DNA of 64,000 nt from Desulfocarbo indianensis (GTDB lineage Bacteria > Desulfobacterota > Desulfarculia > Desulfarculales > Desulfarculaceae). Where the stretch lies: contig LBMP01000005.1 of assembly GCA_001184205.1 (NCBI GenBank), forward strand, positions 372,001-436,000, read 5' to 3'. The notes beneath the pieces are model-generated. The model was not told the DNA's origin and ran no database searches. It saw nothing but the letters and a program-made list of their open reading frames with translations. Shown piece after piece: positions 20,495 through 63,841 of this stretch. Within the stretch, counting starts at the first letter, position 1. Every line of letters begins with the position of its first letter. The translations under genes were made by a program, and so were the position numbers.

Positions 20495-20523
20495 TTGACC
20501 GCATATCGAGCAGATGCTAAGAA
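20495..20523 (+). promoter_or_regulatory. Possible promoter of the aminotransferase leader
   Basis: TTGACC (20495-20500), 17-base spacer, weak -10 TAAGAA (20518-20523). It would start RNA near 20530, just before the leader peptide's ribosome site. Confidence 0.45.
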
Positions 20524-20546
20524 ATATCTGGCAAGGAGCAGGGAGC

Positions 20547-20618
20547 ATGCGCTGGATGGCCCAACGATTTAGCTATTATTATTGGCTTTCGCGCCATCGG
20601 TGCGTCCGCCGGGCCTAG
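20547..20618 (+). CDS. Aromatic-rich leader peptide (23 aa) of an attenuator
   Basis: ATG at 20547 with AAGGAG eight bases upstream, 23 codons, TAG at 20616-20618: MRWMAQRFSYYYWLSRHR then CVRRA. Codons 8-13 read Phe-Ser-Tyr-Tyr-Tyr-Trp, and there is another Trp at codon 3: six aromatic residues in the first 13. Such clustering in a short, well-initiated peptide directly before a terminator and a biosynthetic/degradative gene is the hallmark of ribosome-mediated attenuation. The peptide itself probably has no other role. Confidence 0.7.
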   Translation: MRWMAQRFSYYYWLSRHRCVRRA

Positions 20619-20657
20619 CTCCAAGCTGTACCCCGAAACAGCCACCAGCCGCGGATG
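20603..20657 (+). promoter_or_regulatory. Antiterminator pairing of the aminotransferase attenuator
   Basis: CGTCCGC (20603-20609), near the end of the leader peptide frame, repeats the core of the terminator's 3' arm and can pair with GCGGATG (20651-20657) in its 5' arm: 7 bp, one G-U. A ribosome stalled on the Tyr/Trp codons (20574-20585) leaves 20603-20609 free to do so; one that reaches the stop at 20616 covers it. Inferred from base pairing. Confidence 0.55.
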
Positions 20658-20684
20658 ACCGAAAAAGTCGTCCGCGGCTCTCTT
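20647..20684 (+). terminator. Intrinsic terminator in the aminotransferase leader
   Basis: 13-bp stem (20647-20659 with 20667-20679, one T-G), loop CGAAAAA, followed by CTCTTTT. It ends only about 28 bases before the aminotransferase ATG, so it must be read through for the gene to be expressed. Confidence 0.85.
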
Positions 20685-20712
20685 TTAGAGCATATTCGCG
20701 AAGGAGGAAGCC

Positions 20713-21891
20713 ATGCCCGTGGCCCAGAAGATAGCCCAATTCATTGAGCGCTCCAGCTGGATTCGAGCCATGTTCGAGGCGGGCGCCAAGCTCAAGGCGG
20801 AAAAAGGCGCGGAGAACGTCTATGATTTTTCCCTGGGCAATCCCAACATAGAGCCGCCGGAGTCTTTCTACAAGGTATTGGGCAAGCTGGCCGCGGACCG
20901 CACCCCCGGCTCCCACGCCTATATGCCCAACGCCGGCTATCCGGGGGTTAGGGCCAAGGTGGCGGAGTTCCTCTCCAGGCACTCGGTCCCCGATTTCACG
21001 CCCGAGGACGTGGTCATGACCGTGGGCGCCGGCGGCGGCCTCAACGTGGTGCTCAAGGCCATCGTGGACCCCGGAGCCGACGTGGTGGTGCCCACGCCCT
21101 ATTTCGTGGAATACGATTTCTACCTGGACAACCACGGCGGCGCGGTCACCAGGGTGCCCACCCGGCCGGATTTCTCGCTGGACGTGGACGCCGTGGCCGG
21201 CGCGGTGAGCGACAAGACCTGCGCGGTGCTGATCAACACCCCCAACAACCCCACCGGCGCCATCTATCACGACAAGGAGCTGAAAGAACTGGCCGACGCC
21301 CTGACCGCCATCGGCGACAAGCGGGGCCGGCCGGTGTATCTCATCAGCGACGAGCCCTACCGGGACATCGTGTTCGACGGCGTCACCGTGCCCAGCCTGT
21401 TCGACATTTACCAGCAGAGCATCGTGGTGACCAGCTTCTCCAAGAACCTGAGCCTGCCGGGCGAGCGCATCGGCTACGTGGCGGTGCATCCCAAGATCGC
21501 CGACAAGGGCATCCTCATGGCGGGCATCACCCTGGCCAACCGCATCCTGGGCTTCGTGAACGCGCCCGCCCTCATGCAAAGGGCGGTGGCCGAACTCCTG
21601 GAAGACAAGGCCGACGTATCCCAATACGCCCGCAAGCGCGAACTGATCCTGGAGGTGCTGGATCAGGCCGGTTTCGAGTACGTGAAGCCCCTGGGCGGCT
21701 TCTACGTGTTCCCCAAAAGCCCCATTGCCGACGACGTGGCTTTCGTCAAGGAAGCCCAGAAGGAAAACATCCTCCTGGTGCCGGGCAGCGGCTTCATGGG
21801 GCCGGGCTATTTCCGCATAGCCTTCTGCTGTTCCGACGCAACCATCACCCGCTCGGCCCAGGCCTTCAAAAGGGTCCGTGCGCGCTTCTGA
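20713..21891 (+). CDS. Class I/II pyridoxal-phosphate aminotransferase (aromatic substrate likely)
   Basis: 392 aa, fold type I. Visible: GAGGGLNVVLKAI (cofactor phosphate loop), NTPNNPTGAIY (PLP ring Asn), DEPYRDIVF, the Schiff-base Lys in SFSKNLSLPGERIGY (about residues 245-259) and the substrate-carboxylate Arg in YFRIAFCCS near the C-terminus. The family includes aspartate, aromatic and alanine aminotransferases. Sequence alone does not settle the substrate; the upstream leader rich in Tyr/Trp/Phe codons argues for an aromatic amino acid. Its aryl-pyruvate product would be the substrate of IorAB encoded at 452-2956. AGGAGG precedes the ATG. The last 14 bases overlap mtaB. Confidence 0.9.
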   Translation: MPVAQKIAQFIERSSWIRAMFEAGAKLKAEKGAENVYDFSLGNPNIEPPESFYKVLGKLAADRTPGSHAYMPNAGYPGVRAKVAEFLSRHSVPDFTPEDVVMTVGAGGGLNVVLKAIVDPGADVVVPTPYFVEYDFYLDNHGGAVTRVPTRPDFSLDVDAVAGAVSDKTCAVLINTPNNPTGAIYHDKELKELADALTAIGDKRGRPVYLISDEPYRDIVFDGVTVPSLFDIYQQSIVVTSFSKNLSLPGERIGYVAVHPKIADKGILMAGITLANRILGFVNAPALMQRAVAELLEDKADVSQYARKRELILEVLDQAGFEYVKPLGGFYVFPKSPIADDVAFVKEAQKENILLVPGSGFMGPGYFRIAFCCSDATITRSAQAFKRVRARF

Positions 21892-23182
21892 CCGCCGGGC
21901 CCAGGGCCTCTACCAGGTGGCCAGCCTGGGCTGCAAGGTGAACCAGGCCGAGGCCGCCTCCCTGCGCCGGGATCTGGCGGACCGGGGCCTGCGCCCGGCC
22001 CGGCGGGGCCAAGCCGCCGCCACGGTGGTGCTTTTCACCTGCACCGTGACCGTGGCGGCCGCCAGGCAATCCCGGCAGGCCGCCCGCCGCCTGGCCAGGG
22101 CCCATCCAGGGGCCCAGGTGATCATCACCGGCTGCGACGCCCAGGCCGAGCCCCAGGTCTACGCCGGGGAGGGCTTCCAGGTTTTGGGGCGCTCCCGCCT
22201 GGCCCGCCTGGCCGATATCATCGCCCAGGGGGAAAGCCTTCCGTCCGGCGCGCCGCCGCCGCCCGACCAGGGGCCCTTTTGCCAGGGCTGGGAAACTCCC
22301 GGCCCGCGCCGCACCAGGGGGCTTTTAAAGGTGCAGGACGGCTGCGACGCCTTTTGCGCCTATTGCATCGTGCCCCATACCAGGGGCCGGCCCCGCAGCC
22401 TGGCGGCGGAGAGCGCGGCCGCGTCCTTTGCCAGCCTGGCCCAAGCCGGCGCCGCCGAGGTGGTGCTCACCGGCATCCACCTGGGGCGCTGGGGCTGGGA
22501 TTTGCAGCCCCGCCAGGAGCTGGGCCATCTCATCAGGGCGTTATTGGCGGCCCACCCCGGTCCGCGTTTGCGGCTCTCTTCATTGGAATCAGCCGAAATT
22601 ACTGACGATTTACTGGAGATTCTCGTTCGGGAGCCCCGGCTGTGCCCCCATCTGCACGTACCCCTGCAATCCGGCAGCGACAAGGTGCTGCAAGCCATGG
22701 GCAGGCCCTACACGGCCCGGCAATACGCCGCCAAGGTCAGCCATGCCGCCGCCCTGCTGCCCGGCCTCTGCCTGGGGGCCGACGTGCTGCTGGGCCTGCC
22801 CGGCGAGGACCAAGAGGCTTTTCAAGAGACCCTTGACCTGGTTTCCGCCTTGCCCCTGGCCTATTTGCACGTGTTTCCCTATTCGCCCCGCCCCGGCACG
22901 CCGGCCGCCGGGCTGCCCGGCCGCCCCCCCGCCCTAGAGGTGCGCCGCCGTTCGCAAATCCTGCGGGAGCTGGGCCAGGCCAAGCGCCTGGAATTCCTGC
23001 GCTCCCAGGTGGGCCGCCCCTTGAGCGCCGTGGTGGAGGGTTCCGGCCTGGGCCGCACCGCCAATTATTGCCTGGTGCGACTGGACCCCGGCCCCCGGCC
23101 GGGCCAGGTGGTGGAGCTGAAAGCCCATGCCGTGGACGCCGCCGGCCGCGAGCCCTGCCTCTCACAGGCGGTCATGCTTTGA
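21878..23182 (+). CDS. mtaB: tRNA t6A37 methylthiotransferase MtaB
   Basis: 434 aa radical-SAM enzyme that adds a methylthio group to threonylcarbamoyl-adenosine 37 of ANN-decoding tRNAs. N-terminal UPF0004 domain with its three cluster cysteines (LGCKVNQ, FTCTVT, GCDAQ), radical-SAM motif CDAFCAYC (about 152-159, within the MtaB-type DGCDAFCAYCIVPHTRGR), and a C-terminal TRAM-like segment (VGRPLSAVVEG... onward). The start is a GTG at 21878 inside the end of the aminotransferase gene, so the two are translationally coupled. The LGCKVNQ form separates MtaB from MiaB (TxGCQMN) and RimO. Confidence 0.9.
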   Translation: MRASDRRAQGLYQVASLGCKVNQAEAASLRRDLADRGLRPARRGQAAATVVLFTCTVTVAAARQSRQAARRLARAHPGAQVIITGCDAQAEPQVYAGEGFQVLGRSRLARLADIIAQGESLPSGAPPPPDQGPFCQGWETPGPRRTRGLLKVQDGCDAFCAYCIVPHTRGRPRSLAAESAAASFASLAQAGAAEVVLTGIHLGRWGWDLQPRQELGHLIRALLAAHPGPRLRLSSLESAEITDDLLEILVREPRLCPHLHVPLQSGSDKVLQAMGRPYTARQYAAKVSHAAALLPGLCLGADVLLGLPGEDQEAFQETLDLVSALPLAYLHVFPYSPRPGTPAAGLPGRPPALEVRRRSQILRELGQAKRLEFLRSQVGRPLSAVVEGSGLGRTANYCLVRLDPGPRPGQVVELKAHAVDAAGREPCLSQAVML

Positions 23183-60567: not shown

Positions 60568-60644
60568 GGGCCCATAGCTCAGCTTGGTAGAGCCTCCGGC
60601 TCATAACCGGATCGTCCCTGGTTCGAAGCCAGGTGGGCCCACCA
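60568..60644 (+). tRNA. tRNA-Met (CAT anticodon)
   Basis: 77 nt including an encoded CCA. Acceptor GGGCCCA/TGGGCCC (60568-60574 with 60634-60640), D-arm GCTC...GAGC, anticodon stem CCGG/CCGG around CTCATAA, T-arm CCTGG-TTCGAAG-CCAGG. G1-C72 pairing excludes the initiator. A CAT anticodon can also be the lysidine-modified isoleucine tRNA; the T-arm and acceptor look more like elongator Met of related bacteria, but Ile2 cannot be ruled out by eye. Confidence 0.9.
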
Positions 60645-63167: not shown

Positions 63168-63495
63168 ATGCCGGGATGGAGTCGGCTAGATTACAGCCGG
63201 TTCCCCGATAAGGGGCTGTGGGAGTGTTGCTCGCAAGGCTAATCCTAAGACAAAAAGCCCCATAAGCGAAACGCAATTATTCAGGCGCGTTGTTAGCGTG
63301 ATTGATTCATATGCCGGGACGGAGTCGGCCGGCGGTCGCCGGCTCCCAAACAGGACAGCGCTCGATATCAGGTTGTTTTAGTTTAGGCTCGCAACAATTA
63401 AGATGTTCTCATAAACCAAAAGCAATTATTCAGGCGCGTTGTTAGCGTGATTGATTCATATGCCGGGACGGAGTCGGCTGGACGGTCGCCGGCTC
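63168..63495 (+). repeat. Three tandem, decayed copies of the rnpB promoter/5' end
   Basis: The string ATGCCGGGAYGGAGTCGGC occurs at 63168, 63310 and 63460. Around the last two, 63273-63345 and 63422-63495 are a direct repeat with the first 57 bases identical (offset 149). The first copy is degenerate but similar to the second in the stretches around GCTCGCAA, CATAA and the run of A before GCAATTATTCAGG. No protein gene lies in 63076-63461. Confidence 0.8.
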
Positions 63496-63841
63496 TAAAA
63501 ATAGAGCGGGAGGAAAGTCCGAGCACCGCAGGGCGGGATGCTGGCTAACGGCCAGGGGGGGCGACCCCATGGCAAGTGCAACAGAAAGCAGACCGCCGCT
63601 CCTCGTGGGCGGTAAGGGTGAAACGGCGAGGTAAGAGCTCACCAGCGCGGGCGGCGACGTCCGCGGCTAGGCAAACCCCATCCGGTGCAAGACCAAATAG
63701 GGAGGCGTTTGAGGGCGGCCCGTCCGAGGCCTCCGGGTAGGTTGCTTGAGGCGCCGGGCAACCGGCGTCCTAGAGGAATGACCGTCGCCGGCTCTTTCGA
63801 GCCGGAACAGAACTCGGCTTACAGGCCGGCTCCGTCCCGGC
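63462..63841 (+). ncRNA. rnpB: RNase P RNA, bacterial type A
   Basis: About 380 nt. P1 pairs the 5' GCCGGGACGGAGTCGGC with the 3' GCCGGCTCCGTCCCGGC. Conserved core elements are present in order: GAGGAAAGTCCGAGC (P4 5' side, near 63510), ACAGAAA, GTAAGGGTGAAACGG, GGTAAGAGCTCACCAG, GGCAAACCCC, AGAGGAATGACC and ACAGAACTCGGCTTAC (P4 3' side). It makes mature 5' ends of tRNAs together with RnpA. Its location after a Nif3/zinc-ribbon/RNase H cluster is common in this phylum. Confidence 0.95.

Follow-up and report, generated by a model that had tools for sequence, protein, structure and literature searches.

A putative leader-peptide attenuator responsive to tyrosine and phenylalanine upstream of an aminotransferase gene in Desulfarculaceae

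The described systems closest to the locus reported here are the pheL-pheA and pheST attenuators of Escherichia coli (Phe_leader, RF01859), which combine a leader peptide rich in one aromatic residue, alternative antiterminator and terminator structures and the logic of tRNA charging, and the trp attenuator (trpL), in which the position of the ribosome on the leader ORF governs alternative pairings. In Corynebacterium glutamicum, the AroR leader (Neshat et al., 2014) encodes a Phe-Tyr-Phe peptide and attenuates the DAHP synthase gene aroF; Phe matters in this system, whereas Tyr availability is without effect (reviewed in PMC11802643). Predicted examples include the uORFC-13-1 motif, a uORF before aroF in Acholeplasma (PMC8632094), and F/Y uORFs before shikimate genes (PMC6429828, Fig. 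6b). A comparative study found tyrosine to be T-box regulated and phenylalanine to be attenuator regulated (PMC1262725). Transaminase steps, including the last ones to Tyr and Phe, are often unassigned among the gaps in amino acid biosynthesis (PMC5764234). The attenuators described in the literature that we searched, with subscription papers outside reach, act on trp, pheA, pheST and C. glutamicum aroF, and none was found on an aminotransferase gene or in Desulfobacterota; a search of the same literature for an attenuator or leader peptide in Desulfovibrio also returned nothing.

The locus described here belongs to Desulfocarbo indianensis and was analysed within a window of 64 kb, by which we mean the whole stretch of DNA under study; the features given by window position lie on its plus strand. 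A putative promoter (20495-20523), recognized by its sequence and by the spacing kept in family loci, consists of TTGACC (20495-20500), a 17-nt spacer and TAAGAA (20518-20523), a weak -10 box with three of the six consensus bases. The Shine-Dalgarno sequence AAGGAG (20533-20538) is followed 8 nt further on by the ATG of a 23-codon leader ORF (20547-20618, MRWMAQRFSYYYWLSRHRCVRRA, stop codon 20616-20618), which, with its start codon and ribosome site, appears translatable. Aromatic enrichment and a preference for TAT mark the codons TTT AGC TAT TAT TAT TGG (Phe-Ser-Tyr-Tyr-Tyr-Trp, 20568-20585) as the regulatory ones. The last codons of the ORF contain segment 2 (CGTCCGC, 20603-20609), the 5' strand of an antiterminator, which can pair with 20651-20657 over 7 bp including one G.U. 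An intrinsic terminator (20647-20686) is built from segment 3 (AGCCGCGGATGAC, 20647-20659), a loop (20660-20666), segment 4 (GTCGTCCGCGGCT, 20667-20679) and, directly 3' of the latter, the U-rich tail CTCTTTT (20680-20686); its stem has 13 bp, again with one G.U. These parts had been named in the original prediction, along with Trp at leader codon 3, F-S-Y-Y-Y-W at codons 8-13 and the 7-bp alternative pairing, and direct reading of the DNA bore all of them out where they had been placed.

Judging from the sequence, this module is in all likelihood a classical ribosome-mediated transcription attenuator, through which the supply of charged tRNA-Tyr and tRNA-Phe would govern an aminotransferase-mtaB operon. 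RNA polymerase would start near 20530, and a ribosome would translate the 23-codon leader. When charged Tyr- or Phe-tRNA is short, the ribosome would stall on the TTT/TAT run (20568-20582) and leave segment 2 free to pair with the emerging segment 3; this pairing would block the terminator, and transcription would read on into the aminotransferase gene. When the tRNAs are charged, the ribosome would reach the stop codon and cover segment 2, segments 3 and 4 could then pair as the terminator, and transcription would stop near 20686 after a leader RNA of about 155 nt. If translation fails altogether, the leader ORF is expected to fold on itself and sequester segment 2, again favouring termination.

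The module resembles the pheL-pheA and pheST attenuators in all three of the features named above, but its target is a transaminase operon instead of the genes for chorismate mutase-prephenate dehydratase and Phe-tRNA synthetase, and Tyr dominates over Phe in the window's family. With trpL it shares the governing role of ribosome position, but trpL relies on Trp codons, whereas here Trp enters the aromatic core in no more than 3 of 15 leaders; the counterpart of trpL within the window's genome is the trpEG leader (FGFYWWW). AroR is likewise a case of leader-peptide attenuation of an aromatic pathway gene, although its target is a DAHP synthase gene in another phylum and the window's family has a conserved Tyr run. 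The uORFC-13-1 motif and the F/Y uORFs are similar as predicted uORF attenuators on shikimate genes, but as described none of them precedes an aminotransferase gene, and uORFC-13-1 belongs to another phylum. The mechanism is known; the target appears to be new, and we found no earlier description of its use in Desulfobacterota. A Tyr-dominated leader-peptide attenuator is also uncommon (compare PMC1262725 and, for AroR, PMC11802643). An Rfam scan of the window leader gave no family at the gathering threshold, Phe_leader (RF01859) and Trp leader (RF00513) included, and at E<=1 neither of these two matched the window locus (L057); the sole Phe_leader match at that level was L070, which reached 32 bits where the cut-off is 55. 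Elsewhere in the window, the Rfam scan placed an RNase P RNA (class A) at 63470-63837 and a tRNA gene at 60568-60641.

Short ORFs containing a few aromatic codons are frequent, and in one relative (L016) the terminator is present without the ORF, both of which would agree with an ordinary terminator that happens to lie beside a random aromatic-rich ORF and has no function with it. The region 20535-20700 folds with z = -3.7, none of 200 shuffles being equally stable. A scan of both strands of the window, in which a match had to combine an ORF 9-45 codons long, a stretch of eight residues within it including five or more aromatic ones, and an intrinsic terminator behind it, returned the leader at 20547 alone; 12 dinucleotide-shuffled windows gave a mean of 0.08 matches per window. 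This low expectation stands against coincidence, as do the core kept in 15 of 17 loci with exchanges inside the aromatic class and the covariation in both alternative pairings, which are described below. A chance origin of the module is strongly disfavoured by its conservation and seems to us scarcely credible.

A protein search of 60 relatives yielded same-family aminotransferase orthologues with 61-78% identity. Counting the window, 17 same-family loci were compared, and 15 of them, from several genera, have the module with promoter TTGACC, leader ORF and terminator; the aminotransferases of the relatives carrying it are 68-78% identical. TTGACC, the 17-nt spacer and a -10 box starting with TA are kept across the family loci at near-fixed spacing; in L005, by reading, TTGACC lies further upstream with an 18-nt spacer. 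The leader peptides of the family include MHREFRFIRYYYYPGNGFAEAC, MNSHGIRFIRYYYLPGSGSVEAY, MAGRGVRFSGFHYYRH, MISSNGRFSRYYFYYQRRCVRWP and MGARRFTSYYYWYLPQGSARTP. Alignment of orthologous loci had been set beforehand as a check on the original prediction, and it came out in its favour: in 15 of the 17 loci a short ORF has the aromatic core RFxx[YF]YY while its remaining codons vary, and terminator and antiterminator covary. Since leader and terminator are conserved across the family, the module is very probably a ribosome-controlled switch that is on when aromatics are short. Allowing one mismatch, a search for CGATTTA-N5-TATTATTATT, a pattern that misses the window's own leader (one codon fewer), returned only aminotransferase loci within the family; outside it, the pattern and its reversed control were similarly rare.

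Both exceptions keep the aminotransferase-mtaB pair. L017 (G006) has lost the entire module, and L016 (G003) has kept promoter and terminator while the leader ORF is absent. A relative with the terminator and without the ORF had been named in advance as a case that would speak against the attenuator. L016 is the only such case, one genome against fifteen, and we weighed it as a strict refutation and judged it not decisive. This locus might be an attenuator minus its sensor, or one turned into a constitutive partial terminator.

The 15 leaders share the peptide core R-F-x-x-[YF]-Y-Y. Taking the conserved Arg as the origin, aromatic residues fill 66 of the 75 places at +1 and +4 to +7, compared with 14 of 238 elsewhere, the sequences being related and the odds hence not independent. 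Exchanges at core positions are mostly within F/Y/W, with H, L or C tolerated at single positions, and the cluster of pathway codons is conserved while the other codons vary. The leaders favour TAT and TTT over TAC and TTC relative to the window genes (TAT:TAC is 40:7 in the leaders and 28:41 in the window genes), a preference that calls for caution given their shared ancestry. A signal from Tyr, Trp and Phe together had been expected. The Tyr and Phe part of it holds, both being constant in the core; Trp occurs within the core of so few leaders (3 of 15) that the sensed amino acids are taken to be Tyr and Phe, and Trp was rejected in this role.

Arg (14 of 15 leaders) and Phe at +1 (15 of 15) are fixed near the Tyr run, which is more than codon sensing alone needs and would suit a nascent-peptide sensor, in which Arg-Phe-x-x-Tyr-Tyr-Tyr arrests the ribosome on a small molecule (tyrosine, phenylalanine or a keto acid). 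We regard such a sensor as improbable. The core swaps among Y, F and W and tolerates H, L or C singly, and the window leader is one residue shorter between Phe and the Tyr run; codon sensing therefore fits better than a specific arrest peptide. In addition, the DAHPS leaders of the same genomes are different peptides of equal aromatic richness.

Aromatic codon sensing leaves unexplained that CGATTTA (window 20565-20571 and equivalents) is conserved at the nucleotide level. GATTTA is found in 14 of 15 leaders, including an A that opens codons for different amino acids, as would be expected if a trans-acting protein or transcription factor bound the CGATTTA element and the leader ORF were a by-product. 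Binding of this kind would, however, account neither for the aromatic coding, nor for the position of the stop codon relative to segment 2, nor for the antiterminator, and the analogous DAHPS leaders in the family have other sequences, all of which makes it highly improbable. Directly behind the conserved Phe, this A opens AGC, ATC, ACG, ATG, AAC or ACC in 14 of 15 leaders; the amino acids differ (Ser, Ile, Thr, Met or Asn), and the ANN class is constant. ANN codons are read by t6A37 tRNAs, and MtaB-type enzymes convert t6A37 to ms2t6A37. One may speculate that hypomodified tRNA slows the ribosome at the ANN codon beside the Tyr run and turns the operon up, in which case the leader would also sense tRNA modification and feed back on the mtaB-like gene of its own operon. 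We consider this distinctly improbable, as the conserved A could equally reflect the CGATTTA nucleotide motif or shared ancestry, and the mtaB-like gene scores below the MtaB cut-off.

Attenuation by a translating ribosome also accords with the RNA structure. The intrinsic terminator is conserved, with 91% of cells in its helix paired over 14 loci and four pairs changed on both sides; its covariation score is above those of all 500 shuffles and all slid controls. The mutually exclusive antiterminator is 87% paired over 13 distinct rows, four of its pairs likewise differ on both sides, and its covariation exceeds that of all 500 shuffles and of all slid versions, the latter being only 31-44% paired; these values come from an alignment register set by hand, which leans towards structure. 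The clearest compensatory case is provided by L005 and L009, in which segments 2, 3 and 4 are altered together (GGTTCGCGG with CCGCGAACC or CCGCGAGCC). Cognate pairing of segments 2 and 3 has a mean of -15.6 kcal/mol, against -11.7 (sd 0.6) with segment 2 shuffled; it is weak, at -9 to -10 kcal/mol, in two of the 15 sequences (L013 and L015).

Distances were counted in nucleotides from the conserved Arg codon in the 15 sequences. Most aromatic codons fall between +12 and +21, every leader has the start of segment 2 within +33 to +40, the stop codon is at +51 in most, and the terminator follows from +71 to +87. In two leaders with the stop at +30, segment 2 starts 7 nt past the stop. The positions of codons, stop and segment 2 fit the proposal that segment 2 would be free when the ribosome stalls on Tyr codons and covered when it stands at the stop. 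With a ribosome on the Tyr codons and a transcript ending at segment 3, segment 2 is predicted to pair with segment 3. A ribosome placed at the stop codon leaves the terminator as the only structure of the predicted fold; with no ribosome, the leader ORF is predicted to fold on itself and the terminator to form. These three predicted folds correspond one by one to the states of a classical attenuator. At predicted equilibrium the terminator is more stable than the antiterminator, and the switch must therefore rely on kinetics, as in known cases.

The gene behind the module (20713-21891) encodes a class I/II PLP-dependent aminotransferase of 392 aa belonging to the PRK06836 family (NF005305, 555.5 bits, cut-off 376; PF00155), whose resemblance to TIGR01265 and TIGR01264 is below their cut-offs. 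Its fold is the ordinary one of class I transaminases and does not in itself point to a substrate. It had been described as a stand-alone gene, but the start of an mtaB-like tRNA methylthiotransferase gene (21878-23182) overlaps its stop codon, and both genes are probably part of the same operon. An mtaB homologue lies 3' of the aminotransferase gene in every same-family locus that extends far enough. The mtaB-like product scores high enough for the wider MiaB/RimO subfamily (TIGR00089, 297 bits, cut-off 251) and too low for the MtaB-specific TIGR01579 (321.6 bits, cut-off 357).

The aminotransferase most probably serves the synthesis of tyrosine and/or phenylalanine, a specificity that we infer from the attenuator signal and from an operon found in a sister family within the class. 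There, one locus reads leader-DAHPS-pheA-aminotransferase (L250) and another DAHPS-pheA-aminotransferase (L251), which supports the aromatic biosynthetic role independently. Among 80 loci, most of them belonging to other families, none had aromatic pathway genes beside the aminotransferase, and the DAHPS-pheA-aminotransferase linkage is therefore known here from one sister family only. The attenuator might be real and the enzyme nevertheless a broad or catabolic transaminase merely responsive to aromatic supply, which would suit the near ubiquity of PRK06836 in the phylum (over the cut-off in 207 of 247 genomes, mostly leaderless) and the bare title, 'Amino Transferase', of the nearest solved structure (3ele). 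We think this unlikely, as induction under aromatic shortage suits synthesis and not breakdown, and a PRK06836 member lies directly 3' of pheA in the sister-family operon. The module would assign a signal, the charging of Tyr- and Phe-tRNA, and a likely pathway to a widespread family whose curated name lacks a substrate.

Further aromatic leaders were found in the same genome. On the contig of the window, an aromatic gene cluster (L249 = G000:C279:103500-116500) contains an F/Y leader with terminator (GAGLFFFNYYYFYFTAV, about C279:107675-107812, minus strand) before DAHPS-pheA-tyrA, and a Trp leader with terminator (GFGFYWWW, about C279:116207-116344, minus strand) before trpEG. The DAHPS leader ends in GAGLFFFNYYYFYFTAVRPQAVEV, with the aromatic run FFFNYYYFYF, and the DAHPS gene itself (C279:106665-107387) is a PF00793 match. 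An F/Y-rich leader lies near a DAHPS gene in 13 of 13 family genomes searched (G000-G012, including G003 and, from the same genus, G001); the peptides differ from the aminotransferase leader and equal it in aromatic richness. Trp leaders precede trp genes in other family genomes, some of which have two in tandem (L235 and L238). We propose that leader control of the aromatic pathway in the window's genome is exerted by at least three attenuators, the aminotransferase module among them. Three loci (L235, L238 and L252) have two tandem Trp-rich leaders, each with its own terminator, before a trpD-like gene; those of L252 read AWRYWWQSW and EFYWWRW. F/Y leaders such as MHFLLTTRFSFFFSGRGLPTG also occur before a gene for a metallo-beta-lactamase-fold hydrolase in two loci of the window's family (L179, L180) and one of another family (L160), and their RF core resembles that of the aminotransferase leader.

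A covariance model (R1) built from the family leaders gave, within the family, one strong match per genome carrying the module, always upstream of the aminotransferase gene. Outside the family, weaker matches in many other Desulfobacterota families read as F/Y/W-rich short ORFs with terminators. Among the retrieved loci of this kind with a readable downstream gene, 28 of 35 precede aromatic biosynthesis genes (15 ADH synthase, 10 DAHP synthase, two trpE and one PRK06836 aminotransferase); R1 favours AT-rich aromatic codons, so that the codon content of the matches is partly selected, but this bias does not extend to which genes lie downstream. Representatives of each gene type were confirmed with NCBIfam, and the rest were identified through shared N-terminal sequences. 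The single aminotransferase case belongs to an unrelated family (L174, leader MAKKSFVFFNNYFVYYFFGFISVRGPD). These observations point to leader-peptide attenuation as a main control of aromatic synthesis in Desulfobacterota, spanning DAHP and ADH synthase, pheA, trp and the PRK06836 transaminase.

Elsewhere in the phylum, a leader was found before none of 30 PRK06836 genes. A second set of 80 PRK06836 loci gave three leaders, one of them from the same family and the sporadic ones in L104 and L139, a doubtful Spirochaetales match being left aside. As most PRK06836 genes are leaderless, leader control of the aminotransferase is lineage-specific. The simplest history is that the window's family, and a few others independently, brought a PRK06836 transaminase under aromatic attenuation.

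Leaders reading YYYYYY or FYCFYYAY were also seen before genes for periplasmic binding proteins of branched-chain-type ABC transporters (L168 and L169), which are perhaps uptake systems for aromatic amino acids. In L187 and L186, a Trp-rich leader region (RDNDRWWWLWLSPGR in L187) precedes a TrpB-like (TrpB2) gene.
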